This document shows, piece by piece, positions 6,939-43,906 of a DNA stretch of 59,495 bases (positions are counted from its first letter, which is position 1; each line of letters starts with the position of its first letter). Source of the stretch: Spirochaetota bacterium (GTDB lineage Bacteria; Spirochaetota; JAHITG01; JAFGFC01); assembly GCA_016931325.1 (NCBI GenBank), contig JAFGFC010000090.1, positions 1 to 59,495 on the forward strand, in the 5' to 3' direction. The position numbers and the translations under genes were made by a program. Below the pieces are notes generated by a model. That model did not search any database. It was not told the DNA's origin and worked only from the letters and a program-made list of their open reading frames with translations.

Positions 6939-6967
6939 TTCCTCATTTTTATCCTCCGGTGTATAAT
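6939..6967 (+). promoter_or_regulatory. Extended -10 promoter of the beta-helix locus (copy A)
   Basis: TTCCTC (6939-6944), 17 nt, then TATAAT (6962-6967) preceded by TG. The 22 nt at 6954-6975 are identical to 23585-23606 in front of the orphan peptide gene, and both have a TTCCT-type -35 at the same distance and a T-run in the spacer. The gene at 7003 begins 35 nt after the -10, with a GGGGG-containing ribosome-binding site. The region 6883-7002 holds no gene. Confidence 0.7.
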
Positions 6968-7002
6968 CTATAAAATGGCAGAGATACAAAAGGGGGTAAA
7001 AA

Positions 7003-10000
7003 ATGAAAGGGAAAGCCGTATTGATTTTTATATTTTTTTTCTGTTTTAGCACAGTATCGTTTGCTTTCGATTATATCACGAATAAAAATTTTATTGCCTA
7101 TACACCCATCCCTCAACCGGCCAAAGAAGTCGCTGTCACTGATCCTGATTTCAATACAACATTCTATCGCGTTTCGGACGCCAACCTTGACGGAGTGGGA
7201 GACAGGATGGCCATGGTCGTTTACAGCCGATGGTCCCCTCTCTCCTCAGGGCAGGATTATCTATATCTTCAAAGGGCCGTGGGAAATCCGGATGCCTTGA
7301 TCTATTCCGCTCAGGATCATTCCCTGATCAAGATCCTCCCGGAATATATCACGATCGACGGTGTTCCCAACCAGTTCTTTATCTCCATGGAAAGCGCGGA
7401 GATCAGATGGGATTATACGGGGGATCATCCTCACCGGTTCTATTATGTGAGCGGTATGAAATTCTATCAGTATGACGTCCTATCCGATACCGCTCATCTG
7501 ATCCACGATTTCTCCAATGAGTTCCCCACGGCCGTCAAGATCCACAATGATGTTGAAGGTGATTCTTCCTCTGATTCGCGGTACTGGGTCTGGATGGTAA
7601 AAGGCCCTTATAACGGCAGTCACTTCCCTCTTCTGGCTATTATTACATATGATAAGGAAACAGACCAGATCCTGGGCGTGATGGATCTGGCCAAATACCA
7701 GGCCAATGGTGGACATTACAGTTCCCTGCCTACACCTAATATGGTCGATATTTCCCCCTCCGGCAGAAAAGTGGTCTGTTTGTGGGGAAGATGCTGGGGT
7801 GATGCGGCCTATGGCGAACGATATCTTGATATCGGGACTGTTTTCGATGGACCGCATGCCTGGGACCTTGATTTTACAGGGCCTGTCAAAGTGAGTATTG
7901 ACGAGACCCATTCAGGCTGGGCCTGGGGGTATGACGGAAGCGAATTATTCGTTTCCCAGAACAACAGGCAGGACTGGATCGAAGCCCGGAACATTGATAC
8001 AGGTGAAATTATTCAGATCTTGCAGCATGGCGATCTGGGCTGGGGTAATGGCTTTCATTTTGCCAGAATGCCCCAAAGTAAGCCCGGTTGGGTTTTGATG
8101 TCCACCTATAAATCAGGAGCCAATTCTGACTGGGGTGATAATCAGCTCCTTATGCTTGAAATAAAACCCGCGGCTGAAAATCCCAAGGTCTGGCGCCTGG
8201 GACATACACATAATAATTATGATGAATACTATGCGGAAGGTTTTGCAGCCATGTCCCAATACGGGGATAAACTATGGTGGGGAGCCAAATGGCCGGGTCA
8301 GAACAATATTGAAGCCTATGAAATGGTTTTACCCCCCACCTGGTGGGAAGATCTGTCAGGGGGGCTCGTGCCTGCGCTCTATTCTCCTGTTGATATAACG
8401 ATAAATACAAACCGCCCTTCTTTTTACTGGTCTGATGAATCAGACAGAGGAGCCACAAAATACTGGATACAATTATCAGAAAGCTCTGATTTTAGCTCTG
8501 TAATAATAAATAATACAAATATCGTTGTGACCAATTTTTCTGCCAGTATCATACTCTCTGATAATACGTATTATTGGCGTGTCCAGGCCATGGCTTCCAA
8601 TACGTGGCGGGGATGGTCCGCCATCAGGCAATTCAACATCAATACCGGTTCGATTCCACCGGATTCTGCGCCGGTGATCTTTTATTCTGACCTGGAAAAT
8701 GGCCCCAGCACAGGGGGCGAGGACAATAAAGGAGCGTTTGTAACGATCTTTGGGAAAAACTTTGGCCCATCACGCGGCTCATCGTATATTACGGTCGGGG
8801 GTGGACAGGTCGACAACTACCGCGTCTGGACGGATACAAAAGTCAGCTTTCAACTGGGGAACGCGGCTTCCAGCGGTGATATCATTATTTTTACATCTCA
8901 GGGCAATTCAAATCCTGTTCCCTTTACCATTAGAAGCTGTGATATTTATTTTGTTGCCACTAACGGGAATGACGGGGGAGATGGTTCTTTTCCCAATCCC
9001 TGGCGACATTTATCGCATGCCCGTTCGGTGATGAGTGGAGGTGACATTCTCTACATTAAAGGAGGCACTTGGACAACTGCCGGAGAGAATTCCAGCGGTA
9101 AACTCTTTTATGTCAGCGGTTCTTACCCCTGGGGAGGAAATGGATCTGATGGGAATCCTCACTGTTTAGTAGGTTATCCCGGTGAAGAAATAATTCTTCA
9201 GGCGAATTCTGATGGGGAAAGTATTATTAATTATGTTGGTTCTGATGATCAGTGCGCAATCAATTCTCATATTGTATTTGCCAACTTTACTGTTGATTGT
9301 AATCAATATGAATCCGGTATTGGATGGCGTGGACGCCGGAATGACGCCAGCCCCACTTATAGAGTAAGGGATATCCGTTTTGTTAATATTGAAGTAAAAG
9401 ATTATCTAAATACTGGTCATATGGGCGGAACAGCCCTTATTGAATTTGGAGCTGACGGACCTCTTGATGATGTAAAAGTATTAGGCTGCAAAGTTCATGA
9501 CATGGATTCCAGCAGCCGTCTGGACCACGGGATATATGTAGCGGCCGGCGGTAATAATTATGAGATCGCCTGGAATACGGTTCATAATATAAAAAGAGTT
9601 GTCTCTGCCGGAGGAGACGGCAATGCCGGCTTTGGCATTCAGACCTATCGCGGAAGCTCCAGTCATTATGCTGATCTGAATAATCTTAAACTCCATGATA
9701 ACCTTGTCTATGAATGCCCTTCGCGTGGAGGGATCAACCTCTCGGACTATACCAAAGATTCACAGATTTATAACAATATCGTATATAACTGCGGTTATGA
9801 CGGGAACGAAGAAGGTTATGGGCTCCGCATCTCTGTTGATGCCGGTGCTCCGGGAACAGGCACACATTATATTTATAACAATACATTTTATAACTGCGGC
9901 GAAGCGAATTCCGCGAATGACTCATCCATTATAGGATTCTTTACCGGAGATGCTCAACACGTCTATTTAAGAAATAATATTTTTCATGCGGTGGCCAATC

Positions 10001-12024
10001 AGAATTACGCTTATAATGCTCTGGACCCTGCCCTTTATACTACTTCGGATAACCTCTGGTATGGAAATGGTAATGCGCCTTCATGGGCCAGTGGCCAGAT
10101 CAATTCTGATCCTCAACTCGAAGATATCAACAATTATAATTTTCACCTTGCTTCTGACAGCCCTTGCAGGGACAGCGGTTATGATACCACATCCATGGTA
10201 CCCAGGGATAAAGATGGCGTGACAAGGCCGCAAAATACCCTGGTGGATATAGGCGCGTATGAATACGCAGGATCATCTACACCGGTTTTAACGGCTCCTA
10301 ACCTGATCTCCCCTCTTCATGATATATGGACCAATCATAATACTCCGGTGTTTGACTGGAGTGATGTAACCGGCGCCGAACAATATAATATTCAGATAGC
10401 CAGTGATCCCGGGTTTACTGCATTACAGATAAATGCGACAAATACTGTCTCTGATTTTATACCTTCTGTTCCTCTCAATGACGGCACAAACTACTGGAAG
10501 GTAAGAGCCTACAGTACAAGCGTTGGATTCGGTCCTTTCAGCAGCACAAGGATCATAAAGATCAACACAACCGTCCCCTCTCCTCCCGCAACTCCAGGTT
10601 GGATCAATGCTCAGGCTATTTCAGATTGTCAGATAGATCTGATATGGCAAAATATTGATAACGAGACAGCTTTTACATTATTCAGGAATGCAGTTAATCA
10701 AAGCAACACGGCTAATCGTGTAACAGGTACAAGTGTTAATATAACAAATTACAGTGATACAGGCCTGACTCCTCTGACAAAATATTATTACTGGATCAAA
10801 GCCTACAATTCCGCGGGTCATTCCGGATTTTCCAGTGTGGCGTCAAACACGACTCTGGTTCCTTCCCTTACAGTTACTGTATTCAGTGATGATTTCAGCA
10901 CAGATAAGAACTGGACGGGTTATGGTTCACCGGCTCAGTGGGAACGAGGTCCAGCAACCAGCGGTGGCGGTGAATATGGAAACGAAGATCCGAGTTTAGA
11001 CCATACATTATCAGCTGATAACTATGTAGCCGGGAATCATATAGGTGGTGATTATGATAACAATATAGCTGATACATACTGGCTGACATCACCCGTCATA
11101 GATTGCTCGTATCATGATAATGTTCAATTATCCTTCTATCGATACTTGAATGTTGAGCAGTCTGCGTATGATCATGTGTATCTTTCTGTATTCAATGGCT
11201 CAATCTGGGTCGTTATATGGAGTAATACCGGAAATATCACGGACTCCGACTGGGTATATCAGAGCTTTGATATTTCCGCTTATGCAGACAATAATTCTCT
11301 TTTCCAGGTACGGTTCGGTATGGGGACAACCGATGTTGGCTGGAGATACAGCGGTTGGAACCTTGATGATATTGTTATTTCAGGCAATACATCTTCATCA
11401 ACACTGGGGGCACCTGTCCTTTTAACGCCGGCTGATGATATCTGGACAAATTCGGGTATTATTGTATTTGACTGGTCAGATGTGATGCTGGCTGAAAAAT
11501 ATAATATCCAGATATCTGATGATAATAGTTTTGCCACTCTGCTTTTAAATGTGACCAATCTCGATTCAAACTACACTGTTAGTAATTCTCATGGAGGGAC
11601 CAACTACTGGAGGGTCAGAGCTTTTAAAGAGAGCACCGGATTTGGTCCATTCAGTGAAGTAAGGAATCTTAAAATTCGAAAAGGATCGGATACGATCCTG
11701 TCAAATCAGGATATCTCAATTCTTCCTGAGGGAGTTTCAAAATCATACCCTAATCCCGTATCAAGAATTCAGATCATGACCTTTGAATACGGCTATAACG
11801 TGAATAAGATAAGGGATAAGATCGATCTTACAATTTACAATCTATCAGGCCATATCGTTTTTTCTGAAACCTATTCGCCGGGCGAAGCAAAAATAACCTG
11901 GGATTTGAAAACCGAAAGAAATTACAAAGCCGCCTGCGGTTTATACCTTTACAGAATCACAGTAATATACACTGACGGCTCAAAGATCACAACCGACTAT
12001 AATAAATTTGTCATTATTAAGTAA
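7003..12024 (+). CDS. Giant secreted multidomain protein: beta-propeller, TIG, right-handed beta-helix, FnIII-like repeats, jelly-roll, C-terminal sorting-type domain
   Basis: A 1673-residue secreted protein with signal peptide (about 1-22). Order read from sequence: a propeller-like region (about 25-450); an FnIII-like domain (456-546); an IPT/TIG-like domain (about 553-645, VTIFGKNFGPSRG); a right-handed parallel beta-helix (about 647-1090) opening with YFVATNGNDGGDGS; FnIII-like domains (about 1093-1190, 1193-1287, 1466-1560); a MAM/jelly-roll-like domain (about 1290-1461, ending WNLDDIVISG); and a C-terminal domain (about 1580-1673) beginning KSYPNPVSR and ending YNKFVIIK. The FnIII-like copies at 1093 and 1466 are close duplicates (IWTN...FDWSDV...YNIQI). 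Beta-helices of this type usually bind or cleave polysaccharide, but no catalytic residues can be assigned. The C-terminal domain is like Bacteroidota type IX/FlgD-Ig tails and is shared with the gene at 13002. First gene of the locus. Confidence 0.85.
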   Translation: MKGKAVLIFIFFFCFSTVSFAFDYITNKNFIAYTPIPQPAKEVAVTDPDFNTTFYRVSDANLDGVGDRMAMVVYSRWSPLSSGQDYLYLQRAVGNPDALIYSAQDHSLIKILPEYITIDGVPNQFFISMESAEIRWDYTGDHPHRFYYVSGMKFYQYDVLSDTAHLIHDFSNEFPTAVKIHNDVEGDSSSDSRYWVWMVKGPYNGSHFPLLAIITYDKETDQILGVMDLAKYQANGGHYSSLPTPNMVDISPSGRKVVCLWGRCWGDAAYGERYLDIGTVFDGPHAWDLDFTGPVKVSIDETHSGWAWGYDGSELFVSQNNRQDWIEARNIDTGEIIQILQHGDLGWGNGFHFARMPQSKPGWVLMSTYKSGANSDWGDNQLLMLEIKPAAENPKVWRLGHTHNNYDEYYAEGFAAMSQYGDKLWWGAKWPGQNNIEAYEMVLPPTWWEDLSGGLVPALYSPVDITINTNRPSFYWSDESDRGATKYWIQLSESSDFSSVIINNTNIVVTNFSASIILSDNTYYWRVQAMASNTWRGWSAIRQFNINTGSIPPDSAPVIFYSDLENGPSTGGEDNKGAFVTIFGKNFGPSRGSSYITVGGGQVDNYRVWTDTKVSFQLGNAASSGDIIIFTSQGNSNPVPFTIRSCDIYFVATNGNDGGDGSFPNPWRHLSHARSVMSGGDILYIKGGTWTTAGENSSGKLFYVSGSYPWGGNGSDGNPHCLVGYPGEEIILQANSDGESIINYVGSDDQCAINSHIVFANFTVDCNQYESGIGWRGRRNDASPTYRVRDIRFVNIEVKDYLNTGHMGGTALIEFGADGPLDDVKVLGCKVHDMDSSSRLDHGIYVAAGGNNYEIAWNTVHNIKRVVSAGGDGNAGFGIQTYRGSSSHYADLNNLKLHDNLVYECPSRGGINLSDYTKDSQIYNNIVYNCGYDGNEEGYGLRISVDAGAPGTGTHYIYNNTFYNCGEANSANDSSIIGFFTGDAQHVYLRNNIFHAVANQNYAYNALDPALYTTSDNLWYGNGNAPSWASGQINSDPQLEDINNYNFHLASDSPCRDSGYDTTSMVPRDKDGVTRPQNTLVDIGAYEYAGSSTPVLTAPNLISPLHDIWTNHNTPVFDWSDVTGAEQYNIQIASDPGFTALQINATNTVSDFIPSVPLNDGTNYWKVRAYSTSVGFGPFSSTRIIKINTTVPSPPATPGWINAQAISDCQIDLIWQNIDNETAFTLFRNAVNQSNTANRVTGTSVNITNYSDTGLTPLTKYYYWIKAYNSAGHSGFSSVASNTTLVPSLTVTVFSDDFSTDKNWTGYGSPAQWERGPATSGGGEYGNEDPSLDHTLSADNYVAGNHIGGDYDNNIADTYWLTSPVIDCSYHDNVQLSFYRYLNVEQSAYDHVYLSVFNGSIWVVIWSNTGNITDSDWVYQSFDISAYADNNSLFQVRFGMGTTDVGWRYSGWNLDDIVISGNTSSSTLGAPVLLTPADDIWTNSGIIVFDWSDVMLAEKYNIQISDDNSFATLLLNVTNLDSNYTVSNSHGGTNYWRVRAFKESTGFGPFSEVRNLKIRKGSDTILSNQDISILPEGVSKSYPNPVSRIQIMTFEYGYNVNKIRDKIDLTIYNLSGHIVFSETYSPGEAKITWDLKTERNYKAACGLYLYRITVIYTDGSKITTDYNKFVIIK

Positions 12025-12037
12025 GGAGGTTTTTGAT

Positions 12038-12988
12038 ATGAAAATCATCATAATCATAATTCAAATTCTTCTACTCGGCTTGAATCTGTTTGCAACCGGT
12101 GAAACCAGCGGAAGTATCTTTGCCATCAATCCCATGCCGGTGTCCGCTGGATTCAATCTTCTCAGTTATGCTCAGGCCACACCTCTGGAAAGCGTAGTCT
12201 ATAACCCTGCCTATACGGTCTCCAAAGATCATCATCTGGGTCTGTCATATGAAAAAATGCCGCTTGATATGCATTACGGTTCTTTTGTTTATATTGCGCC
12301 ATCCACTTTTGGTGAATCGACGGGTATGGGGATATTGTTAAAATATTATAACAGCGGCCGTATTATAAAGATGAATGAAAGTGGCGAGGAAATGGGCGAT
12401 TTCAATGTTAATGATCTGATGGGATCTCTTTCAATGGGTTTCCACATGAGTAAAAGTTTACAGGTCGGTATCCGTATGAACATTATCCATGAAACACTGG
12501 ATTATCAAAAAGAGACCGCTTACAACATGGATATCGGTGCCGGCTGGGATATGTCTCTTTTCAATGCTCAAAAAATGCAGGCCGGTATCGTTCTTCTAAA
12601 CATCGGTACCAGGATGTGGGATGAGAGGCAATCTCTGGGGCTGGCCGGTGGTATTGTGCTGAATTATCCCTTTGGGATCTCGGTTCTGGAATACGGTATA
12701 GCCACCATATTTCGCTCAGGAATGGATTATGAAGTCGGTCCTTCGATCAGATACTCTTTGAAGATCAGGACCTCCTTTAACAAGTTCTATTTATTCAAGA
12801 TCGGAGGAGGTTATTCTTATGGCCGCAGCATAGATAAGAATGGTTTCTTAACCGGATTAAAAACAGGGGCTTTCTTAGAAACGCCCTGGAACATTGCCCT
12901 GGGATATGAAATGGTCTTTTATCCCTGGGGAAATAGCAATAAATTTTATCTGGGCTATCGAAGTGGATTTAAAGATCTTGTCAATTAA
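12038..12988 (+). CDS. PorV/UPF0164-like outer-membrane beta-barrel protein
   Basis: A 316-residue protein with signal peptide (about 1-19) and alternating hydrophobic strands. The start was placed at the ATG at 12038 because TAAGGAGG lies directly upstream; an earlier in-frame start would overlap the preceding gene and lacks a site. SVVYNPAYTVSKDHHLGLSY near residue 48 and later strands such as GIGILLKYY-type segments match the FadL-like PorV/PorQ/UPF0164 group, known in spirochaetes as UPF0164 and in Bacteroidota as the PorV shuttle of type IX secretion. It lies 13 nt after a protein with a sorting-type tail and 13 nt before another, so a role in export or anchoring of those is plausible but unproven. 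Confidence 0.72.
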   Translation: MKIIIIIIQILLLGLNLFATGETSGSIFAINPMPVSAGFNLLSYAQATPLESVVYNPAYTVSKDHHLGLSYEKMPLDMHYGSFVYIAPSTFGESTGMGILLKYYNSGRIIKMNESGEEMGDFNVNDLMGSLSMGFHMSKSLQVGIRMNIIHETLDYQKETAYNMDIGAGWDMSLFNAQKMQAGIVLLNIGTRMWDERQSLGLAGGIVLNYPFGISVLEYGIATIFRSGMDYEVGPSIRYSLKIRTSFNKFYLFKIGGGYSYGRSIDKNGFLTGLKTGAFLETPWNIALGYEMVFYPWGNSNKFYLGYRSGFKDLVN

Positions 12989-13001
12989 AAAGGAAAAGAA
13001 A

Positions 13002-14852
13002 ATGAAAAAAGGACTATTATTTTCTGCTACTCTCCTGTTTATATTATTACAGTCCCATGCTCAGACTGCAACTTTTTATGTTGATGGCTCAAGGCCTGAT
13101 GACACGGGTGATGGTACTTCTTGGGCTATGGCGAAACGATATATTCAATCAGGCGTGGCATTATTGTCCGGTGGAGATACCCTTATCATACGGGATGGGC
13201 TTTATACTGGACCGAACAATATGTTAAGTACAGGTCAAAGTGGGAGTGTTGATCTGCCCTCAGGAAATAATATAGTCGGTTATACGATCATCAGAGGCGA
13301 GAATTATCTGGGTGTTATTATCGACGGTCAGCAGATATGGCCGCCTCTTTACATCGACAATGAAGCATATATCCATTTTGAAAATCTGCATCTGAGATAC
13401 AGTGGCAGTAATTTTGCTGCCAATTTCTTTGCCGCGAACTGTCATCATATTAAAGTCATCCGGTGCGCTTCAGAAGAATCCTGGAATCAGCATTTCAGGT
13501 TCAGATATTCTCATCACTGCTTGTTTGAAGAATGCATCACATGGGGAAGCGGATCCTATTCATTTATCTTTGGCGGATCATTCGGGGATTATACGACATC
13601 ACAATATAATGTGGCCAGAAGATGCGTATCGAGAAGGGACGGACATACCGGCCGGCCGGGAGGGAATCAATACGGATCGTTCGTCACTTACTGGGCTGAC
13701 CATACCTATTATCAGAATTGTATCTCTGTGGATGGGATCAACATCGAAGTGGGAGATCCGAATTATCCCATGGGGTCAAGCGCTGTTTTTTATACAGCTA
13801 ACGGCAGCTCTCACTATTATGCTTACGGATGTATTACCCTAAATGACGAAGGAATGATCGCTCTGTTCGAAAGCAGCGCCTCACCCGTCAGATTAAGAAA
13901 CAATGCTGCCTGGATGGCATCGAGCAGTCGAGGAATTTATTTCAGGGGAGGGAACGATGTTGTTTTTGAAAATAATCTTTTCGGACATCTATCTGAATAT
14001 GGCATACGGGAGATGCCTGATGGGACACTGCTTCAAAATGCCAGGAATAATATTATTTACGGGGTGAGCGGTCAGGCTTTTTCCAGCATCCAGGGAAGCC
14101 ATTCTTATAATGTATTATACAATAATACGATCAATTATTCAGAAACCACTCCGGGCACTGGTGAAGTCACCAATATCAACCCCTTATCCAACGGACTCTT
14201 ATATCTTCCCAGGATCGAGCAGGGCTCTGCTCTGGAAGCAATTGGTGAAGGTGGCTCATGCTGCGGCCCCATGATATTGAAAAAAATAGGTGTCTCAGGG
14301 ACATTGTATGGAGAAGAAGGTTGGGACACAGTAACGGATGATGATCTCTGGCCATGGGAGAATGAAGACATTATAAGAGAAAAAATGAGATCATACATTC
14401 AACATGGCGTTGATGGGACAAGAGGATACTGTGTTGACGGACAGACTTTAACCCGATATATATGGGAGTTTCTGGGGAATCCCCTGCCGGCACAGTTCTC
14501 CATTTCCAACAATCCTTCAACGGTCAATTCCAATCAAACAAGCAATCTCGCTTTTATTCCATTTGCAATAAAAGTATATCCTAACCCTGTCTCAAGGAAG
14601 AAAATATTAACTGTACAATATTCTTATGATCCCTGTAAGGCCATCAGAGATATAAAACTGTCGATCTATACTATACAGGGCCATACAGTTCTTGAAAAAT
14701 CGTTCAGAGATCAACCTATAATCCATTGGGACTTTAAAACTGCTTTCAACAAATTAGTAGCTCCCGGATTATATCTTTTTAAAATATCACTCGAATATTC
14801 TGATGGATTGGAACAAAGTACTGATTTTAATAAAGTTGTAATACTCGAATAA
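13002..14852 (+). CDS. Secreted right-handed beta-helix protein with C-terminal sorting-type domain
   Basis: A 616-residue protein. The ATG at 13002 is chosen because it gives a clean signal peptide (MKKGLLFSATLLFILLQSHA) after AAGGAAAAGAAA, whereas the longer frame runs back through the previous gene. After the signal comes TFYVDGSRPDDTGDGTSW, a typical start of secreted beta-helix (DUF1565/PbH1) domains, then helix coils rich in Asn, Gly and aromatic ladders to about residue 500. A C-terminal domain (about 525-616), beginning KVYPNPVSR and ending FNKVVILE, is clearly homologous to the tail of the 7003 gene: WDFKT, GLYLFKI and the IY..(Q/S)GH.V block all recur. Likely exported to the surface. 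No catalytic residues identified. Confidence 0.83.
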   Translation: MKKGLLFSATLLFILLQSHAQTATFYVDGSRPDDTGDGTSWAMAKRYIQSGVALLSGGDTLIIRDGLYTGPNNMLSTGQSGSVDLPSGNNIVGYTIIRGENYLGVIIDGQQIWPPLYIDNEAYIHFENLHLRYSGSNFAANFFAANCHHIKVIRCASEESWNQHFRFRYSHHCLFEECITWGSGSYSFIFGGSFGDYTTSQYNVARRCVSRRDGHTGRPGGNQYGSFVTYWADHTYYQNCISVDGINIEVGDPNYPMGSSAVFYTANGSSHYYAYGCITLNDEGMIALFESSASPVRLRNNAAWMASSSRGIYFRGGNDVVFENNLFGHLSEYGIREMPDGTLLQNARNNIIYGVSGQAFSSIQGSHSYNVLYNNTINYSETTPGTGEVTNINPLSNGLLYLPRIEQGSALEAIGEGGSCCGPMILKKIGVSGTLYGEEGWDTVTDDDLWPWENEDIIREKMRSYIQHGVDGTRGYCVDGQTLTRYIWEFLGNPLPAQFSISNNPSTVNSNQTSNLAFIPFAIKVYPNPVSRKKILTVQYSYDPCKAIRDIKLSIYTIQGHTVLEKSFRDQPIIHWDFKTAFNKLVAPGLYLFKISLEYSDGLEQSTDFNKVVILE

Positions 14853-14873
14853 AATTCTTATATGTAAAAATAC

Positions 14874-14902
14874 TTGATTACTATTTGAATTTTTATTATT
14901 AT
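14874..14902 (+). promoter_or_regulatory. Possible promoter before the 1382-residue beta-helix gene
   Basis: TTGATT (14874-14879), 17 nt, TATTAT (14897-14902). The ATG at 14921 lies 18 nt after the -10 and has no clear ribosome-binding site. The sequence around is AT-rich, so chance matches are possible. Confidence 0.35.
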
Positions 14903-14920
14903 TGGTCGTAAGCAACCATT

Positions 14921-17900
14921 ATGCTGGATTTAAAAAAATTAAAATATATTTTATTTTCATTACTTTTTCTCACGAACTTTTTAAATGCTCAAACTCTTGT
15001 CTTTTATGTGGATGATGATATTGGCAATGACGGTTTTCCCGGCAGTTATACTCTGCCTTTCCTCACCATTGAAAAAGCCGCCAATGCCATGGCTACCAAT
15101 GTGACATTCGCCTCCTGTTATATCTATCCGGGAACGTATAACGAGCAGGTTTGTATCTTTTCCAACAGGAACTCCGGGTACATGGTCTTTACGGCGCTGT
15201 CAAACAAACAGCCGGTTCTCACCGGATCCTCTACCACCAATCATGGTTTTTATATTACAAACACCAGCCGGATCATCATAGAGAGCCTGACCATTACAAA
15301 ATTCAGCCAGGGTGTCTTCATTAACGTTTCAACCAATAATTATATTAAACAGAATATAATTTTTTCCAACAGGGGACACGGTATCTATGTTCTGGGCGGA
15401 GTTAAAAATCATATGCAATACAACAAGATCAGGCATAATGATTTTATGGGCATGAGAATATCATGGAACAGCCTGAGCAATTATATTACACATAACTCTC
15501 TGCTTTCCAATGGGGATTCCGGTATAGAACTGTATGGAGATTCTTCACGGGGATCCCATGTTCTGACCAACCATATCTATGATCAAGCCAGAGGTATACG
15601 TTTTATTGACAGTGATTTTAATATCATCCGATCCAATTATATTCATCATGTCGTTCTGGATGGTATATCCATGGACGGGAGCGCTGAATATAATGATATC
15701 AATAATAATATATTGTATTCCAATGAAGACTCGGGTGTCGGTATTTATCATGATAATGTGGAACACAATTATATCTCAAATAATACTATCTGGGGTGTAA
15801 GTGACGGCGGGGGTATTCTCCTGCAGGATGGTGATAACAATATCATCAAATCCAATCTGATATTTCATAATACCAATGGAATTGTACTGTACGGCGGGGC
15901 CAGATCCAATATATGCATGAACAATGTCATCTATGAGAATAGAGATGACGGCATCCGGCTGAGTGTTGATGACACAGAGAATAATTCGATTATTAACAAT
16001 ACCATCTGTGGTCCTTTGCAGAAAATGGGTATCAATATCAGTTCGGGTGATAATAATATCATAAAATATAACACTATTTTTAATCATATCAATGTGGGAA
16101 TTTATATCCAGGGTTCGGCCAGCAATAATTATATCATGAAAAATTCCTGCTATTCTAATAATACAAGCGGGATCCATGCTGCCGGATCGGCGGAAAAAAA
16201 TTATATCCTGACCAATTATATCTGGGGGACCAATCAAAACACAGGTATTTATTTTTATAATTCTTATTATAACCTTATAATTTCTAATCATGTTTATCAT
16301 AATAAAGACACAGGTATTAATGTTTCAGGTTCTTCATCCAACAATTATTTTATAAACAATTTTATTTCTTCCAATAACTATGAAGGTATTGGTTTTGTTG
16401 AAAATTCTAAAAATAATTATGTTTTGAGCAATAGAATCGGCGGTAAGAATCAGGATTATGGAATTTATTTGTATTCCGGCAATGGTCAAAAGGTATATCG
16501 GAATTTAATCTACAATATTGAAAATTACTGTATTCGTATAAGAGAATGTACTAATATAAAAATTATAAATAATACTATTTTTCACAGCCTGAATAATCAC
16601 GGCGTATCCTGGGAGAACACATCCAGCGGCACCATGTTTAATAATATTATTTTATCAAATGGTAATGGTGATGACTATGGCCTTTCCCGGACATCAACGG
16701 GAGTGGTCCATGTGGCTTTTAATAATTTTTTTGGAAACAATAACGGTCCAACCAATGGCGGTTTCATCTGGGGCAGCGGGAATATCTTCTCTGATCCTCT
16801 GCTTGATATAAATACATTAATTATTGCTTTGTCCAACAGTCCCGCTGTGGATAGTGCAACTAATATACCCGGTGTCTCGGATTTCATCAAAGGTCTGGGA
16901 CCGGATATGGGCTGGAAAGAATCTCCTTTTACAGGGCCCTATGGTGGCCCTTATTATGTGGATAATGATATAGGATCCAACACTTATCCTGGAACATTCA
17001 GCCAGCCCTTCAGGACAATACAAAAAGCGGCTGAAAAAATGAGCATGGGTGTTACCATTTCCAGTTGTTATATTTATCCAGGAATTTATTCGAATCAGGT
17101 TAGTATATCCTCCAATAAGAACTCTGGATTTATGGTCTTTGCTTCGATAAGCAACAGTAATTATGCTGTTATGAAAGGTGTTTCACAAAATTATGGCTTT
17201 TATATTACCAATGCCAGCAGAATCATTATCCAGGATCTTTATATAGCAAAATACTCTAATGGTATTGCCTTGGCCGGCTCATCCACCAATAATTTTATTA
17301 TAAAAAATACGATATTTTCAAATTCATTATATGGAGTCTATATAAAATCGGATTCTGCAGATAAAAATTATATCCTTACAAATGATATTCAAAATAATCA
17401 ATCTGGTGTTTATTTACGAGATGGTGATAATAATATAATCCAGATAAATAATATTTATGATAACTCGAATGGTATTTACCTATTCGGAACCGCTATGAAT
17501 AATCTGATCCTGTTAAATAACATATATACTAATGCTCTAGCTGGCATCAACATTAACAGTGATGATGCTGATTTTAATTATTTATACGGTAACCGTATTA
17601 TAAACAATTCAGGTGGTATTCTTTTTTCTGATGGAGACTTCAATGTGATAAGATCCAATACGTTTTCAAGCAACAGGTACAATGGTATTCATTTCTTGGG
17701 TACTGTGGAAAATAATGGCATCATGAAAAATGAGTTTTACAAAAATAATCAAAATAGTATATGGGTGGATTCTTTTGCCGCTGTAAATAATCAATTTGAG
17801 ACCAATCATTTCTCGTATAATAACTTTGGCCTTAGAATATCAGACGGAAAAAGAAATATTGCTCGATCGAATTATATCCATAATAACAATTATTACGGTA

Positions 17901-19069
17901 TCCGTGTTACAGGATTGGCAACTACAAATTTTATCACAAAAAATATGATCTGGTCCAATGACTTTCAGGGTATTTTAATGAACGGGGCCGAGGCTGATAA
18001 TAATTATATATCCAGCAATATTATAGGTGGTATAAATCAAAATAATGGAATCGTTATAGAAGATGCGACCCATTGCAAGATCTACAGAAATCTAATCGCA
18101 AGCCAGAATAGCAATGGCATCGTTTTAAGTCAAACAGCCAGCAATATAAGGATAATCAATAATACGATCCTGAAATGCATCAACGGCCATGGATTATTAT
18201 GGAATACAACCACTTCAGGGACTATGTTGAACAATATTATTTTATCAAATGGGGATTATGGAATTCTATCATCTTCATCAGGGTCTGTCCACTACGCTTA
18301 TAACTGTATTTCTGGCAATAACAGCGGCCCCACGAATGGCAACCTGATTGATGGCGGCGCTAACCTTTATCAGGATCCTTTGATCGATACCCTGTATTCT
18401 TTTTCCATCATGGCTTCTAACAGCCCGGCCATTGACAGCGGAACCAATGTACCGGGTATTACAGAAGGTTTTCAGGGCACAGCTCCGGATATGGGCTGGA
18501 GAGAAGGGGTTTATGATATTCTGGCCCCGTTTGTTTTTCCTGACAGAGATGGCGGGCAGTATCTGGGGGATCTGAGCGTTGTGTTCCAGGCCTATAAGGA
18601 TGCCTCTAAGATCCTTGCCGACCCTGCAGCCACTATTTATGTGACTGTCTATCGAAATGAAACTCTTGAGCAGGAACGTTCCGGGACAGGGAATTTGACT
18701 CTTGAACTTTTACAGGGATCCGGATACAGGATCAGTTACTATGCCAAAGATCTGAACAACAATACGAGTTCCCTGCAGGAAGTCGAATATATTCTGTTAT
18801 ATTCCAGTCCTGAGGATATCGCTGTATACCCCACCATCGTCCATATGGATCAAGAAATCGATATGGCCTTTATATATGGCGAAAGAAAAGAAAATGTTGA
18901 TATCCATATATATACTCTCAGGGGTGATAAGGTAAAGACGATTACCGGAGTGGATTTTCGATCAGGAGAATATCGATACGACACGGAAGAACTCTCTTCT
19001 CTTCCTTCAGGCCAGTATATCGTAAAAATAGGTGATAAATCAACGTTATTCTTTATATTAAAGAAATGA
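14921..19069 (+). CDS. Giant secreted protein with two tandem right-handed beta-helix modules (NosD/PbH1-like)
   Basis: A 1382-residue protein with a signal peptide (to about residue 24, ending LNAQ). Two tandem modules follow: module 1 from YVDDDIGNDGFPGSY (about residue 28) to about 675; module 2 from YVDNDIGSNTYPGTF (about 680) to about 1205. Each opens with the same DUF1565-like segment (PF.TI.KAA..M), runs through many 20-30 residue coils of the form NNYI..N.I..N..GI.., and closes with a PAxDS.TN.PG....G..PDMGW motif. The rest (about 1210-1382) is an Ig-like stretch plus a tail (IAVYPTIVH...IYTLRGDKV...GQYIVKI) like a degenerate sorting domain. Strong Asn/Ile/Tyr bias reflects stacked coils. 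The stop overlaps the next start by 4 nt. Substrate or adhesin role unknown. Confidence 0.83.
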   Translation: MLDLKKLKYILFSLLFLTNFLNAQTLVFYVDDDIGNDGFPGSYTLPFLTIEKAANAMATNVTFASCYIYPGTYNEQVCIFSNRNSGYMVFTALSNKQPVLTGSSTTNHGFYITNTSRIIIESLTITKFSQGVFINVSTNNYIKQNIIFSNRGHGIYVLGGVKNHMQYNKIRHNDFMGMRISWNSLSNYITHNSLLSNGDSGIELYGDSSRGSHVLTNHIYDQARGIRFIDSDFNIIRSNYIHHVVLDGISMDGSAEYNDINNNILYSNEDSGVGIYHDNVEHNYISNNTIWGVSDGGGILLQDGDNNIIKSNLIFHNTNGIVLYGGARSNICMNNVIYENRDDGIRLSVDDTENNSIINNTICGPLQKMGINISSGDNNIIKYNTIFNHINVGIYIQGSASNNYIMKNSCYSNNTSGIHAAGSAEKNYILTNYIWGTNQNTGIYFYNSYYNLIISNHVYHNKDTGINVSGSSSNNYFINNFISSNNYEGIGFVENSKNNYVLSNRIGGKNQDYGIYLYSGNGQKVYRNLIYNIENYCIRIRECTNIKIINNTIFHSLNNHGVSWENTSSGTMFNNIILSNGNGDDYGLSRTSTGVVHVAFNNFFGNNNGPTNGGFIWGSGNIFSDPLLDINTLIIALSNSPAVDSATNIPGVSDFIKGLGPDMGWKESPFTGPYGGPYYVDNDIGSNTYPGTFSQPFRTIQKAAEKMSMGVTISSCYIYPGIYSNQVSISSNKNSGFMVFASISNSNYAVMKGVSQNYGFYITNASRIIIQDLYIAKYSNGIALAGSSTNNFIIKNTIFSNSLYGVYIKSDSADKNYILTNDIQNNQSGVYLRDGDNNIIQINNIYDNSNGIYLFGTAMNNLILLNNIYTNALAGININSDDADFNYLYGNRIINNSGGILFSDGDFNVIRSNTFSSNRYNGIHFLGTVENNGIMKNEFYKNNQNSIWVDSFAAVNNQFETNHFSYNNFGLRISDGKRNIARSNYIHNNNYYGIRVTGLATTNFITKNMIWSNDFQGILMNGAEADNNYISSNIIGGINQNNGIVIEDATHCKIYRNLIASQNSNGIVLSQTASNIRIINNTILKCINGHGLLWNTTTSGTMLNNIILSNGDYGILSSSSGSVHYAYNCISGNNSGPTNGNLIDGGANLYQDPLIDTLYSFSIMASNSPAIDSGTNVPGITEGFQGTAPDMGWREGVYDILAPFVFPDRDGGQYLGDLSVVFQAYKDASKILADPAATIYVTVYRNETLEQERSGTGNLTLELLQGSGYRISYYAKDLNNNTSSLQEVEYILLYSSPEDIAVYPTIVHMDQEIDMAFIYGERKENVDIHIYTLRGDKVKTITGVDFRSGEYRYDTEELSSLPSGQYIVKIGDKSTLFFILKK

Positions 19070-21033
19070 AAATATTTATTATTATTATTTCAGTATTATT
19101 TGTTCTAACACCGTCTTATGCATCATCACTGTTAAATTTCGCACATTATAACAGCCGTGTTTACGGGAGTGCAGAGTCAATTTTAGTCGAGAAGAACGAT
19201 CTTAATAATCTGGATATCTTTCCCGCTTCTCTGGCCACCCTGGACCATCCGGCTTTGAGCATAGGATATCTGAAATGGTCTGACTGGCTTTCCATCATGC
19301 GACTGGCCTATGCCCAAAATCTCTCTTCTTTTGGGGTTCTCGGTGGCTCTGTAAATCTGGCTTCTCTAAAAGAAGTAAATAACTATGACCGTTATGGAAA
19401 TCTTTTAGGTCATGTGAAGAACAGTGATGTATTGATCAACCTGGGGTTGGGAAAGGATCTTTCCTTCCTTGCCACGGGAATAAATTTAAAATACCTTAAC
19501 ATGAACCTTGATGAAAATAATAAAAATTTTTTAGGCCTGGGTGTGTCAGTCCTTTTACCTTTAAATTTTAAAGGCATCAATATTGATAAAAAACACAATT
19601 TTAAAGCAGGGATTTCCTTACAGAACCTTGGTCTTTTAAAACTGGATCACGACACCTCTTATCCCCTCTCTTTTTATGGTGGATTTAGCTATGAATTCTT
19701 AAAAATATCTGATATACTAATAAAGATCGGATCCACGTTCACGCATATCACAAAATATTCCCATAACTATATATCCGCCGGATATGAATTAAATTATAAT
19801 GACCTTTTGTTCTTTCGCAATGGCTTTTATTTATTAAAAAGAGATATAGACAGAATGGCTTTTGGGGTAGGGATACGGGCTGATCAAAGATTAAAGAAAG
19901 ATTTCTTAAAAGATACCATCTTTGAGATCGACTACAGCGTGTCCCTTCTGGAAGAGGGGTTATCCCATTTTGTGCAACTTGGTATTTTATTTATACCCCC
20001 CGGGAAAATAAAAGAAAAAGATTTTGAACTTTCCGAAGAACAGGACGCGATATTTTTCACGATCAACAACAAAGGCAAACCCTTGTACGATGACATCCAT
20101 TCCCTTTTAACACCTAAAGGGAAACAGGTATTGGATGAGTTCCTTGGCCATCTGGACCAGGAGTACAAGCGTATCGTTATCAAGGTCAATCTGGATGAGA
20201 TTGGTACCCGCAAAGCCAATTTTACTCTGCCTGACAAATTGAAAGCAGAAATGGGAACATATCTCATTAATAATGGCGTGGTAAAAGAAAAGATCACCTT
20301 CAAGGCCTTTGGCCGTTTGCTCTCTGTTAACCAGAAAGAGGAAGAAGGGATTTCAGATTTACGATACAAGATCGTTGTCCAGCTGTGGGAAGAGGGTGAA
20401 AAAGAAAAATTTGACTCGCATTTTTACAACGGGCTTGACGCTTTTCTCAAAGAAGGCTATGATAAGGCCCTTGATGAATGGGAACAGGCCCTGATGATCG
20501 ATCCCGAGAACGAGGATCTGAAAGATAGGATCGAACAGGTTAAGAAACTGGGGGGTATTCATGACAAGTCTGTCAGAGCCTACATCGATATGCCGGAGAA
20601 GATCAGTAAGAAATATAAGAATTTTATAGTGATCATATTGCCCTATGAAAATACCGGGGATTCTGAAAAATGGGCTCTTTTGAAAAGGACCATCCCTGAT
20701 TCGGTCGGTTCAAGCCTGGACAATTACAGCTATATAAAAGTTATCGGGAGAGGGGTTCTTGAAGAATATATGTTAAAAAAAGAATGGGAAGAAAAGGACC
20801 TGGCTGATGAATATCTCAAAATAGCTCAGGAGCTGAGGACCGATATCGTCATCACAGGCAGTTTTATCCAGACAGGCCGCCGATTGGAGATCAAGACCAC
20901 CCTCTATGATACTCAAACAGGCTCAGCGTTCTCTAAAATCAGAGTTGTCGGAGAGGTGGGTGTCAATATGTTCGATTATATGGACAAAACCGTCAAGTCG
21001 ATCATTAAAGTTTTAAAAGAACACAAGGAGTAA
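19066..21033 (+). CDS. Chimeric envelope protein: barrel-like N terminus, OmpA-like region, TPR unit, FlgO/CsgG-like C terminus
   Basis: A 655-residue protein with signal peptide (about 1-19, ending SYA). Residues about 22-315 look like a PorV/UPF0164-type barrel (LSIGYLKWSDWLSIMRLAYAQ and later amphipathic strands). Residues about 325-450 resemble an OmpA-type peptidoglycan-binding domain (LLTPKGKQVLDEFLGHL...YLINNGVVKEKITFKAFG), though degenerate. One TPR-like unit follows (about 455-490, YDKALDEWEQALMIDPENEDL). Residues about 520-655 match FlgO/CsgG-like proteins (VIILPYENTGDSEKW...RTDIVITGSFIQTGRRLEI). The ATGA overlap with the preceding gene shows translational coupling. This could be an anchored outer-membrane assembly factor for the beta-helix proteins; that is inference. 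Confidence 0.7.
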   Translation: MKIFIIIISVLFVLTPSYASSLLNFAHYNSRVYGSAESILVEKNDLNNLDIFPASLATLDHPALSIGYLKWSDWLSIMRLAYAQNLSSFGVLGGSVNLASLKEVNNYDRYGNLLGHVKNSDVLINLGLGKDLSFLATGINLKYLNMNLDENNKNFLGLGVSVLLPLNFKGINIDKKHNFKAGISLQNLGLLKLDHDTSYPLSFYGGFSYEFLKISDILIKIGSTFTHITKYSHNYISAGYELNYNDLLFFRNGFYLLKRDIDRMAFGVGIRADQRLKKDFLKDTIFEIDYSVSLLEEGLSHFVQLGILFIPPGKIKEKDFELSEEQDAIFFTINNKGKPLYDDIHSLLTPKGKQVLDEFLGHLDQEYKRIVIKVNLDEIGTRKANFTLPDKLKAEMGTYLINNGVVKEKITFKAFGRLLSVNQKEEEGISDLRYKIVVQLWEEGEKEKFDSHFYNGLDAFLKEGYDKALDEWEQALMIDPENEDLKDRIEQVKKLGGIHDKSVRAYIDMPEKISKKYKNFIVIILPYENTGDSEKWALLKRTIPDSVGSSLDNYSYIKVIGRGVLEEYMLKKEWEEKDLADEYLKIAQELRTDIVITGSFIQTGRRLEIKTTLYDTQTGSAFSKIRVVGEVGVNMFDYMDKTVKSIIKVLKEHKE

Positions 21034-21035
21034 TT

Positions 21036-21653
21036 TTGCCAGAATTTTATCTTTTATTGATCCTCCCCTTTTTATTCACCCTTTTTAACCAGAGGCAGAG
21101 ACTGGAAGATGAAAAAGATAACCAGCTGGTGAATATTATTCTTTCTAATGAACATCAGGCGGATCTGGCTTTTCGAGAAATATACCGCAGGTATCACAAG
21201 CGGATCTTTAAACTGATCCATAATTCGGTCGATAACATCGATGATTGCATGGATCTGTTCCAGCAGACCTTTTTAAACGTTTATAAAAGCATGAATTCAT
21301 TTAATCCCAAATATCAGTTCTCCACCTGGATCTACCGTATCGCCACTAATGTAGTATTAAATTACAGGCGGTCACAGGGACGGGCGTTTAAATTTCTGCA
21401 GAAATATGAAAAGATCCAGAAACCTTTTTTTGAACCTGACTTTGCGGATCAGATATACAAGGATGAAATGTTGAATAAACTTCACCAGGCGATAAAGAAA
21501 TTGCCGCATGCGTTCAGCATGCCCCTGTTATTGACCACGATAGGCGAACTAAAGACCAGAGAAGTAGCCGGTATATTAAAGATCACACAGAGCGCGGTAA
21601 GAAAAAGGATCACCCGGGCCAAGGAACTGTTGAAAGACAATTTAAATATCTAA
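21036..21653 (+). CDS. ECF-type RNA polymerase sigma factor
   Basis: A 205-residue protein. Region 2 is visible as YHKRIFKLIHNSVDNIDDCMDLFQQTFLNVY and FSTWIYRIATNVVLNYRR (about residues 50-115), and region 4 as a helix-turn-helix at about 155-200 (LKTREVAGILKITQSAVRKRI). The start is a TTG 2 nt after the preceding stop, with AAGGAG 5 nt upstream inside the end of that gene. No in-frame ATG precedes region 2, so TTG is favoured although it adds an odd hydrophobic N-terminal 17 residues. Genes for envelope proteins precede it and a FecR-type membrane protein follows, the usual company of an ECF factor controlled by an envelope signal. Confidence 0.88.
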   Translation: MPEFYLLLILPFLFTLFNQRQRLEDEKDNQLVNIILSNEHQADLAFREIYRRYHKRIFKLIHNSVDNIDDCMDLFQQTFLNVYKSMNSFNPKYQFSTWIYRIATNVVLNYRRSQGRAFKFLQKYEKIQKPFFEPDFADQIYKDEMLNKLHQAIKKLPHAFSMPLLLTTIGELKTREVAGILKITQSAVRKRITRAKELLKDNLNI

Positions 21654-21660
21654 AATTGTT

Positions 21661-21689
21661 TTCTCTTTTTTTACGGAACGGTTTATAAT
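21661..21689 (+). promoter_or_regulatory. Promoter of the FecR-PQQ gene (related to copies A and B)
   Basis: TTCTCT (21661-21666), 17 nt with a T-run and CGG, then TATAAT (21684-21689). Architecture matches the promoters at 6939 and 23570 but the exact 22-nt block is not kept. The ATG at 21717 has AGAAGGTGA upstream. Confidence 0.5.
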
Positions 21690-21716
21690 ATAATGAGAAC
21701 AAAAAGAAGGTGAATC

Positions 21717-23567
21717 ATGGCCGATATTGAAACCCTTTTGGAGAAACTGAAAAAAGCGTCCATCGACCTGCCTGATGCCCTGTATGAAAATATATCAGAA
21801 GGAATAAAAGATATCAGAGAAAAAAAGAACAAAAGGTTCTTATGGATAAAAATGAAACAGGTTCAGCTCCGCTATGCGGTGGCGTTAGCTGTTTTCATAT
21901 TACTGACAGGGCTCTCTTATCTCTATCTGATAGATATTAATGTCACCGTGATCAGCACGAAAGGGTCACTCACAGCCTCTTCAGTGAAAAATGAATGGCG
22001 TATCCTCAAAGCAGGTGAACGTTTAAAAAAAGGCGATATACTGCAAACCTCAAAAAATAGCGTTGCCGTATTACGGTTCGGCAAAGGGCTGACTCTCGAA
22101 TTGAAAGATGAAAATATTCTTAAAATAAATGAATTAAAAAAATGGCCGGGACATGAATCCTGCCGGATCACAGTAAACCGGGGTAATCAGATATATGATA
22201 TAACAAAAAACGCACAAATTGAGCTTTTTACCGATGACGTTAACATCAGGAACATGGGAACAAAATTCAATATGATCTGTGATCAAAAGGGGACAGGGAT
22301 CAGGGTAGAAAAAGGCAAGGTGGCCTTGAAACGAAATATCATGGACCCGGACCGTCTTAACAGGCTGCATTATGAAAACAAGTCTCTTAAAAGCAAATTG
22401 CACGGCCTTTTTGGTAAAGAGACTATTCTGCATACAGGAGAATGGACCTTTATTAAACGGAACCAAAAATTAAAAGTACAGTCCCTTATTGAACAACTCA
22501 TCGTGAATGATGACAGGGTTAATAGTCAGATCATATCGCTGATACAGAAGGATCTGGCTATTGAAAAGAAAGGGGGGCTTCAACCTCTGTGGACCTATAG
22601 TATGAAAAGTCCGATATGGGCCTCACCTGTCTTTTCAGACCAGCAGATCTATCTGGCCGCAGAGAACGGGTCAATCGCCTGCCTGTCCGGGAACGGGAAT
22701 GTGCTCTGGAAGAGAAAGCATCAGACATCATTTTTTAATTCAGGACTGGTATATAAGAACAGCTTTTATATTATTGACAGCCGGGGCATGCTGCTTACTA
22801 TTAATAAAGACAACTCGGATATCATCCGGGTAAAGCAGGTGGGTGAGACCATGTACTCTGCTCCGCTCGTGGTCTTTGGCAGTATGATCATTGCCACTAC
22901 CTCGGGAGACATGCTGGCCCTGGAACCTGATACCGGAAAAACCATATGGAAAAAGAGTTTTTACAGCGGTATTTTTTCCCAACCTTTTTTTTACAGGGGA
23001 AAGATCTTTTTTGGCACTGAAAATGGCGCTGTCTATGGCTTGAACTACTTTAATGCCGACATAGAATGGAAAATAGATACAGGGAAACGAATTGCTATCT
23101 CTTCTCCTGTCGTCCACAACAGCATTCTTTATATCGCCAACCATAAAGGATCCCTTTTTGCTATAGAGACAGAAAAAGGAAAGATCATCTGGCAAACGGG
23201 GATCGAAGGCAAGATTCTATCAGATCTGTTGATACAGGATAATCATTTATATGCCGCCACGTCCCGGGGCACTCTGTATTGCTTTACTATAAAAGGCAAG
23301 ATCAGATGGAAATTGAACCTGAAAGAGACCGTGCAGACATCCTTCATCTGTTGCAGGAATGATATCATCCTTCCCACCAGGCAGGGTAATGTCTATTTTA
23401 TCAATAAAGAGAAAGGCCTGGTTGAAAAAATAATTCCCCTGGATGAAGAGATCGCCAGCCCGCCTGTTATGAGAAATAACTCGATCTATATCACCACCAT
23501 GAAAGGGAATATATTTAAATTTTCTTTCAAAAACAGCATGATAGCCACCCATGAGGGGCTTTTTTAA
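21717..23567 (+). CDS. FecR-domain membrane protein fused to a PQQ-type beta-propeller
   Basis: A 616-residue protein. A short charged cytoplasmic segment (1-48) precedes one transmembrane helix (about 52-72, YAVALAVFILLTGLSYLYL). Next comes a FecR-like domain (about 75-200): LKAGERLKKGDILQTSKNSVAVLRFG, then NMGTKFNMICDQKGTGIRVEKGKVAL. After a linker, residues about 285-610 form a seven-bladed-type PQQ/Pqq-like propeller with repeats of LWTYSMKSPIWASPVF, GNVLWKRK, GKTIWKKSF, ADIEWKID, GKIIWQTG and GKIRWKLN. FecR proteins transmit an envelope signal to an ECF factor or act as anti-sigma. Position directly after the sigma gene supports that role. The propeller would lie outside the inner membrane and could be the sensor. 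The fusion is unusual. Confidence 0.82.
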   Translation: MADIETLLEKLKKASIDLPDALYENISEGIKDIREKKNKRFLWIKMKQVQLRYAVALAVFILLTGLSYLYLIDINVTVISTKGSLTASSVKNEWRILKAGERLKKGDILQTSKNSVAVLRFGKGLTLELKDENILKINELKKWPGHESCRITVNRGNQIYDITKNAQIELFTDDVNIRNMGTKFNMICDQKGTGIRVEKGKVALKRNIMDPDRLNRLHYENKSLKSKLHGLFGKETILHTGEWTFIKRNQKLKVQSLIEQLIVNDDRVNSQIISLIQKDLAIEKKGGLQPLWTYSMKSPIWASPVFSDQQIYLAAENGSIACLSGNGNVLWKRKHQTSFFNSGLVYKNSFYIIDSRGMLLTINKDNSDIIRVKQVGETMYSAPLVVFGSMIIATTSGDMLALEPDTGKTIWKKSFYSGIFSQPFFYRGKIFFGTENGAVYGLNYFNADIEWKIDTGKRIAISSPVVHNSILYIANHKGSLFAIETEKGKIIWQTGIEGKILSDLLIQDNHLYAATSRGTLYCFTIKGKIRWKLNLKETVQTSFICCRNDIILPTRQGNVYFINKEKGLVEKIIPLDEEIASPPVMRNNSIYITTMKGNIFKFSFKNSMIATHEGLF

Positions 23568-23569
23568 AA

Positions 23570-23598
23570 TTCCTGTTTTTTCTTCTCCGGTGTATAAT
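23570..23598 (+). promoter_or_regulatory. Extended -10 promoter (copy B) before the orphan peptide gene
   Basis: TTCCTG (23570-23575), 17 nt, TATAAT (23593-23598) preceded by TG. The 22 nt from 23585 to 23606 are identical to copy A at 6954-6975. AAAGGAGG follows at the right distance for the ATG at 23625. Confidence 0.7.
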
Positions 23599-23624
23599 CT
23601 ATAAAAAGAAAAAGGAGGCTTTTT

Positions 23625-23822
23625 ATGGATTTGGATATTAAAGAGAACACCGAGATCGAGGTTTATAACATCATGGGTCAGTTGATCGTCATTATCGAAT
23701 CTTCTTCAAAATTCAAAGATATCCTCTTAGGCCGCGAGTATAAAGGATATTATTTTATATCGTATATCAATACCCAGGGTCAGAAAATAACCACGACGCT
23801 GAGGAAAACGAATCCCTTTTAG
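23625..23822 (+). CDS. Orphan sorting-domain-like peptide (65 residues)
   Basis: A 65-residue peptide without a signal sequence. IEVYNIMGQLIVIIES, then GYYFISYINTQGQKITTTLRK, follow the pattern of type IX/FlgD-Ig C-terminal tails seen in the locus (IY...GH.V...GLYL..I....G....). A strong ribosome-binding site (AAAGGAGG) and the copy B promoter show it is expressed as a unit rather than a random frame. It might be a relic of a truncated large protein whose promoter survived, or a real small protein. Convergent with prmC, 7 nt apart. Function unknown; without a signal peptide it should stay in the cytoplasm. Confidence 0.6.
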   Translation: MDLDIKENTEIEVYNIMGQLIVIIESSSKFKDILLGREYKGYYFISYINTQGQKITTTLRKTNPF

Positions 23823-43457: not shown

Positions 43458-43534
43458 TAAAAAATTATGAATTTGTCGATTTGTTAAAAGAATAGTCCAG
43501 TGTCCTGTAAAACCAGAGTTCTCGACCCGACTCA

Positions 43535-43897
43535 TCCCCAGGAATTGCATGGCAATTCCAGGCCCTGTGAAATTTTTCTTTGAAAAATTTCCAGGACTTA
43601 ATCCTTGGAATCGTTTTACGATTCCTAAGGGCAATTTTCACGGGGCTTCCTGCTCATGATCAAATCTTTACCATCCCTGGTAGATTTGATCCGATCCGTC
43701 CCCAGGAATTGCGTGGCAATTCCAGGCCCTGTGAAATTTTTCTTTTAAAAATTTCCAGGATCAAGTTCCGGAAATCGCTATGCGATTTCTCGGGAGACTT
43801 TACCCCGGAAAATCTTCGATTTTCACGGGGCTTCCTGCTCATGATCAAATCTTTACCATCCCTGGTAGATTTGATCCGATCCGCTTCCTGCGGATCG
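43535..43897. repeat. Tandem array of covarying hairpins between fabH and the MsmK-type ATPase gene
   Basis: Two unequal tandem units. 43535-43596 and 43699-43760 match except for two bases, and 43634-43698 is identical to 43819-43883 (65 nt). Within them lie hairpins: GGAATTGC/GCAATTCC (43541, 43705); GAAATTTTTC/GAAAAATTTC with CCTG/CAGG clamp (43564-43595); GGAATCG/CGATTCC (43607-43625); GAAATCGC/GCGATTTC (43771-43789); GAAAATC/GATTTTC with CCCCG/CGGGG clamp (43803-43830); GATCAAATC arms around CCATCCCTGG (43658, 43843); CGATCCG/CGGATCG (43877-43897). No open frame here looks real. The stretch 43458-43534 shows nothing. Confidence 0.85.
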
Positions 43898-43906
43898 AAA
43901 AAAGTG

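Follow-up and report, generated by a model that had tools for sequence, protein, structure and literature searches.

Within a 59,495-nucleotide stretch of DNA from a spirochaete genome (the window), eight neighbouring genes bring together large beta-helix proteins, barrel proteins, an ECF sigma factor and a FecR-type protein. Do these genes form a self-regulated surface-display system, as the original prediction proposed, and which parts of type IX secretion accompany them?

Organisation of the locus

All eight open reading frames were found on the forward strand in the predicted order (Table 1), with an overlap of 4 nt between genes 4 and 5, a gap of 2 nt between genes 5 and 6 and short gaps elsewhere. 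Profile searches bore out the beta-helix cargo, the PorV-family barrel, the ECF sigma factor, the FecR-PQQ fusion and the orphan tail. In the case of gene 5, described beforehand as a chimera, the barrel was recovered and the OmpA and TPR parts gave weak matches, but no FlgO model matched the C-terminus and the FlgO-like part was not retained. At their start, genes 1 to 5 all show the kind of hydrophobic segment expected of a signal peptide (gene 3 judged by eye).

The ECF frame opened by the TTG codon (21036-21105) has a good ribosome-binding site. It begins with about 20 residues, mostly hydrophobic, which the orthologues lack; either translation starts elsewhere or this sigma factor is unusual at its N-terminus. 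Further along the window, at 43524-43900 and just upstream of a gene at 43972, two diverged copies of a palindrome-rich, REP-like intergenic repeat of about 180 bp share an identical stretch of 65 nt.

Table 1. Genes and promoter-like elements of the module, in window positions
Feature	Position	Strand	Description
Gene 1	7003-12024	+	Putative multidomain cargo, 1673 aa, signal-peptide-like start; fn3, IPT/TIG, choice-of-anchor Q, PorU-type/TIGR04183-like tail
Gene 2	12038-12988	+	PorV/PorQ-family barrel; alternative in-frame TTG start at 12008
Gene 3	13002-14852	+	Putative Beta_helix cargo, tail type as in gene 1; alternative TTG start at 12894
Gene 4	14921-19069	+	Putative Beta_helix/NosD cargo (E 3e-73), 1382 aa, own tail type
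Gene 5	19066-21033	+	PorV-family barrel (E 5e-18), weak OmpA-like and weak TPR matches, C-terminal domain
Gene 6	21036-21653	+	ECF sigma factor; TTG start
Gene 7	21717-23567	+	FecR region (just under cut-off) and BamB/PQQ propeller, membrane-anchored
Gene 8	23625-23822	+	Orphan TIGR04183 tail, 65 aa, without signal peptide
Promoter-like element TTCC-N14-CGGTGTATAAT	6939-6967	+	Exact motif match, before gene 1
Promoter near-match TTCT...CGGTTTATAAT	21661-21689	+	2 mismatches, before gene 7
Promoter element, second exact copy	23570-23598	+	Before gene 8 (orphan tail)

Cargo proteins and their C-terminal tails

The beta-helix nature of gene 1 is taken from a choice-of-anchor Q match and a weak DUF5123 match in the profile search, and its product is 73% identical over 550 aa to a protein encoded on contig C439 of G001, a genome of the same order and another family. 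The tail of the gene 4 orthologue matches TIGR04183 at 8.9e-5. Across the genome to which the window belongs (G000), 53 TIGR04183 tail matches were found, 40 of which exceed the curated cut-off on their own score, and the type A-like tails form the very C-termini of their proteins. We infer that genes 1, 3 and 4 encode cargo that would be exported by Sec and then secreted.

The small gene 8 consists of a tail scoring 27 bits against the TIGR04183 cut-off of 23, and the nearest tail among those scored is that of gene 1 (65 versus 51 for the next one). Neither a transmembrane nor a signal segment was found in it, and G001 has no counterpart. Since its promoter is also that of gene 1, it is most likely the relic of a gene 1 duplicate which has kept promoter and tail, lost the body and decayed to a functionless remnant. 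We hold this origin for probable only, since the reading frame is intact and has a good ribosome-binding site, and since the promoter is far better conserved than the tail.

PorV-family barrels and their pairing with tailed cargo

Gene 2 matches the PorV/PorQ family (NF033709) with an E-value of 1.2e-16 and 61 bits against a curated cut-off of 90, and the barrel of gene 5 also falls under the curated cut-off. The predicted structure of the barrel, with a pLDDT of 30, was unusable and was counted against a type IX-like reading. At the genome scale, PorV-family matches amount to 56 in G000, many of them above the cut-off, to 74, 71 and 31 in the next three genomes and to 3-5 in each of four further genomes tested.

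The arrangement of these genes is highly ordered. Among the 38 barrels listed of the 56 in G000, 19 directly follow a tail gene on the same strand, 87-385 nt 3' of the tail, compared with 0.23 expected, and no barrel-tail pair in the opposite order or strand was seen among the same 38. Furthermore, tail and barrel similarities co-vary, with a Mantel r of 0.83 over 25 pairs; within G000 the value is 0.57 over 16 pairs, and 0.44 with the gene 4/5 pairs reduced to a single one (10 of 5000 permutations). Such co-variation would also be expected from the duplication of pairs as units. Together, the position of half of the listed barrels 3' of tails and the co-varying similarity make genes 1-2 and 4-5 best read as cargo plus dedicated shuttle.

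We therefore propose gene 2 as the cognate shuttle of gene 1, and perhaps also of gene 3, and gene 5 as the cognate shuttle of gene 4, PorV-family barrels being presumed to function as shuttles. Gene 3 has no adjacent barrel of its own, which was counted against the display-operon reading as a whole. The functional unit appears to be a cargo and its cognate PorV-type barrel, repeated across the genome, and the module is one of many such pairs.

Type IX-like components elsewhere in the genome

The original prediction saw no other type IX component. This is correct as far as the window goes; the genome, by contrast, has a SprA/Sov-like protein in addition to the 53 tails and 56 PorV-family barrels. 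Indeed, when Sov, PorU and the PorL/PorM motor were searched for in G000, the first gave a match, a protein of 1,921 aa (G000:C52) which aligns with TIGR04189 over three collinear stretches (E-value 1.5e-30) and reaches 105 bits against a cut-off of 200. Neither this protein nor its profile matched any PDB entry, no solved SprA being among the hits, and SprA-like relatives occur in 17 of the 41 genomes of the phylum. The catalytic part of PorU was not found in G000, where only the C-terminal tail part matches, and a match to the catalytic region was obtained in G046 only. GldL and GldM (the PorL/PorM motor) gave no match in G000, a search that remote forms could escape. Given that G000 is 95% complete, in a 204-contig assembly, the absence of PorU, GldL and GldM is likely, not certain. 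Filing the pathway as a T9SS would be unjustified, given that the searches for two defining parts came out negative and that the translocon match stays under its cut-off; it is likely that it works like one.

In some relatives (L091, L092, L093) the SprA-like genes directly adjoin flagellar rod-type (flgF/flgG-like) genes. The SprA-like gene of G001 (L085:2931-8690) has a stop codon between two long frames, which could reflect either a genuine break or an error in sequencing.

That the PorU catalytic part and the GldL/GldM motor were not found would fit an ordinary cell-surface-signalling locus, made of an ECF/FecR-type regulator and large adhesins, whose barrels would be FadL-like porins or scaffolds and whose tails would be plain Ig-like domains, with no type IX-like transport. 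Some tails do resemble FlgD Ig as well, and the barrels of the module stay under the PorV cut-off. We nevertheless consider such a locus unlikely, since the 53 tails stand at the very C-termini and are paired far above chance with co-varying PorV-family barrels, and since a SprA-like protein is present.

The sigma factor and the FecR-propeller protein

Gene 6 has an orthologue, 61% identical, at the same place in G001:C439. The FecR region of gene 7 scores 21.4 bits against a cut-off of 24, and 25.9 bits in the orthologue, and a single transmembrane segment lies near residue 54. Modelled from the single sequence, the propeller half of gene 7 reaches a pLDDT of about 70-90, a confidence that the FecR half does not share, and the best matches of the propeller model among natural structures are BamB proteins (probability 1.00). 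The PQQ propeller fold of the BamB type is common to many proteins, and hence a link between gene 7 and barrel assembly is suggested at most. Gene 7 would be the anti-sigma factor of gene 6, a single-pass protein with a periplasmic propeller.

Pairs of an ECF sigma factor with a membrane FecR-type protein were seen as genes 6-7, as the orthologous pair in G001:C439 and as another pair in G001:C253. More distant pairs, in which the partner is a zinc-finger-like/FecR/PEGA/propeller protein, are found at G000:C134, at G001:C414 (twice) and at G002:C9, C118 and C292, and PorV-family genes lie near those of G000:C134, G001:C414, G002:C9 and G002:C118. One same-strand run (L070:4849-12753) comprises an ECF sigma factor, a zinc-finger-like/FecR/PEGA/propeller protein, a glycoamylase-domain protein and a PorV-OmpA-TPR barrel, and is a parallel regulatory module in the same genome. 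No TonB-dependent transducer was found among the eight genes, and a receptor-like open reading frame at 2863-4638 lies outside the module on the other strand. In open-access full text we found no paper describing ECF/FecR/propeller fusions; reports elsewhere are possible.

A promoter motif shared by module genes

A 37-bp direct repeat with 22 identical bp stands before gene 1 (6939-6975) and before gene 8 (23570-23606), and no further copy exists in the genome at up to 3 mismatches. That it marks the boundary of a mobile element was discarded, since in another family similar sites, differently flanked, stand before module genes.

From the aligned sites, the motif TTCC-N14-[AC]GGTGTATAAT was drawn by eye. 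In four genomes it has 8 exact sites, namely 2 in G000, both at the module, and 6 in G001. Of the latter, two lie at C439, before the orthologues of genes 1 and 7, three at C492, before gene 7, a STAS gene and a gene for tailed cargo, and one at C430, before a paralogue of that cargo gene. All 8 sites stand in front of genes of the module or of a paralogue of one of its cargo genes. From dinucleotide content about 0.015 sites would be expected in G000 and about 0.02 in G001 (about 0.03 together), figures that are no clean test for most sites because the motif was drawn from them; the C430 site and the gene 7 site of C492 came from the motif search alone, outside the drawing of the motif. The exact motif is absent from G002 and G004, where full-length gene 7 was not found either, absences that are weak in G002 given its completeness of 78%. 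In front of gene 7 the match is exact in both C439 and C492 of G001 and takes a 2-mismatch form in the window, matches at 2 mismatches being mostly background according to a reversed-pattern control. As for the 11-mer CGGTGTATAAT alone, 3 and 6 copies were found compared with 0.9 and 1.1 expected; this is barely above chance, and only the two-box motif was therefore used.

The -10 box of the motif, TATAAT (6962-6967 before gene 1 and 23593-23598 before gene 8), is also the housekeeping -10 and hence not specific to the gene 6 sigma factor, which may read the promoter. The presence of a promoter before gene 7, separate from the sigma gene, suggests negative feedback.

Conservation of the module in relatives

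Among the sampled genomes, the full module set occurs in one other only, G001, and full-length gene 7 is likewise found in 1 of the 59 sampled relatives (G001), that is in G000 and G001 only among 60 genomes. In G001:C439, genes 2 and 1 lie on one strand and genes 4, 5, 6 and 7 divergently on the other, with identities of 41-73%. The gene 2 orthologue (52% identity) stands beside the gene 1 orthologue and is adjoined by a STAS gene, and gene 3 is absent from this locus. A second locus, G001:C492, carries genes 4 and 5, two other genes, gene 7 and a STAS gene. The pair 4-5 is kept in five loci, twice without sigma and FecR genes (G000:C79 and G001:C44), and once an ECF-FecR pair stands apart, next to hydrogenase-maturation (hyp) genes on a cut contig (G001:C253). 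Parts of the module can thus separate, and part of what the original prediction had given as grounds for its rejection was indeed observed.

STAS-domain-like genes are found next to the module in both G001 loci (L064:5486-5824 and L065:2-217), one of them under the module promoter, and a further regulator is possible. At L063:3-10067, an open frame of at least 3,355 aa with a signal-like start lies next to a gene for a PorV-family barrel and to another 4-5 pair. A spirochaetal host is suggested by the flagellin, whose best matches include FlaB1 of Leptospira, and by several families named for Leptospira loci that match in this genome.

The separations bear on an improbable view, according to which the PorV barrels and the SprA-like protein make up a simplified type IX-like system that has no motor or another source of power, the ECF and FecR genes are neighbours of cargo genes by chance, and the housekeeping sigma factor or a different regulator reads the promoter: the solitary 4-5 pairs, the hyp neighbours and the TATAAT box would agree with it, but all 8 exact promoter sites precede module genes or a cargo paralogue in gene 7-bearing genomes, with none in G002 and G004, and related ECF/propeller pairs recur beside PorV-family genes.

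Proposed mechanism

Overall, we judge it fairly probable that the module is an operon for surface display which regulates itself and serves a type IX-like pathway. What stands of the original prediction is an operon of surface cargo that includes an ECF and FecR-type regulator of its own, as supported by the promoter motif and by an order partly conserved in G001:C439; the idea of a fixed eight-gene system does not.

In such an operon, the products of genes 1, 3 and 4 would be exported by Sec and carry C-terminal sorting tails, and those of genes 2 and 5 would be outer-membrane PorV-family barrels, each dedicated to shuttling the cargo whose gene lies immediately upstream, gene 5 having an additional, putatively peptidoglycan-binding OmpA-like domain. 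The SprA/Sov-like protein of G000:C52 would provide the outer-membrane pore. The sigma factor would be held by gene 7, whose periplasmic part would join the FecR region to the BamB-like propeller, until an envelope signal, perhaps the load of unassembled barrel or cargo, frees it; the nature of this signal is presumed. Once freed, the sigma factor would raise transcription from the TTCC-N14-[AC]GGTGTATAAT promoters before the cargo genes and also from the gene 7 promoter, resulting in negative feedback.

A broader proposal is put forward with reserve, as a possibility that we would not favour at present: type IX-like display could exist outside Bacteroidota in the absence of both the known motor and the known sortase, with tens of dedicated PorV-family shuttles, each encoded next to the cargo it serves, in place of the single PorV shuttle, and with some pairs tuned by an ECF/anti-sigma couple that reads outer-membrane assembly via the BamB-like propeller.

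Significance and comparison with known systems

Surveys and reviews restrict type IX secretion and its tails to Bacteroidota (PMC10202324, PMC4793230), although possible cases in Chlorobi, Fibrobacteres and Ignavibacteriae are mentioned in one paper (PMC5837995). In open-access full text we found no paper describing type IX parts in spirochaetes; they may be reported elsewhere. Here, tails, PorV-family barrels and a SprA-like protein, the former two numerous and in ordered pairs, are seen in a genome apparently outside Bacteroidota. Two questions become directly testable, namely whether secretion by SprA-like proteins can do without the GldLM motor and whether a dedicated shuttle per cargo can set cargo specificity. 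Furthermore, the propeller on the putative anti-sigma factor hints at a sensor through which cargo transcription would be tied to the assembly of barrels.

With the type IX secretion of Porphyromonas and Flavobacterium, the spirochaete system shares type A-like tails, PorV-family barrels and a large SprA/Sov-like protein. Control by an ECF factor is common to both as well: in P. gingivalis, SigP controls T9SS genes in the PorXY-SigP pathway, and the tailed protein PorA feeds into this control (PMC7712824). The differences are its place outside Bacteroidota, the PorU catalytic part, GldL and GldM that were not found in G000, and the number of PorV-family barrels, tens here as against a single PorV shuttle there.

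As in ECF/FecR cell-surface signalling, an ECF sigma factor adjoins a single-pass membrane protein with a FecR region, whereas the module has no TonB-dependent transducer and the periplasmic part ends in a BamB-like propeller. Gene 7 shares with BamB the PQQ-type propeller fold of its C-terminal half but is no lipoprotein, its propeller being fused to a transmembrane segment and a FecR region beside a sigma factor.

In Flavobacterium johnsoniae, PorV recognises all type A tails and type B tails go with linked PorP/SprF shuttles (PMC12618676). The pairs described here resemble the type B tail/PorP-SprF pairs in that a cargo gene is genetically linked to a dedicated outer-membrane shuttle gene; they differ in that the tails are type A-like and the barrels belong to the PorV family.
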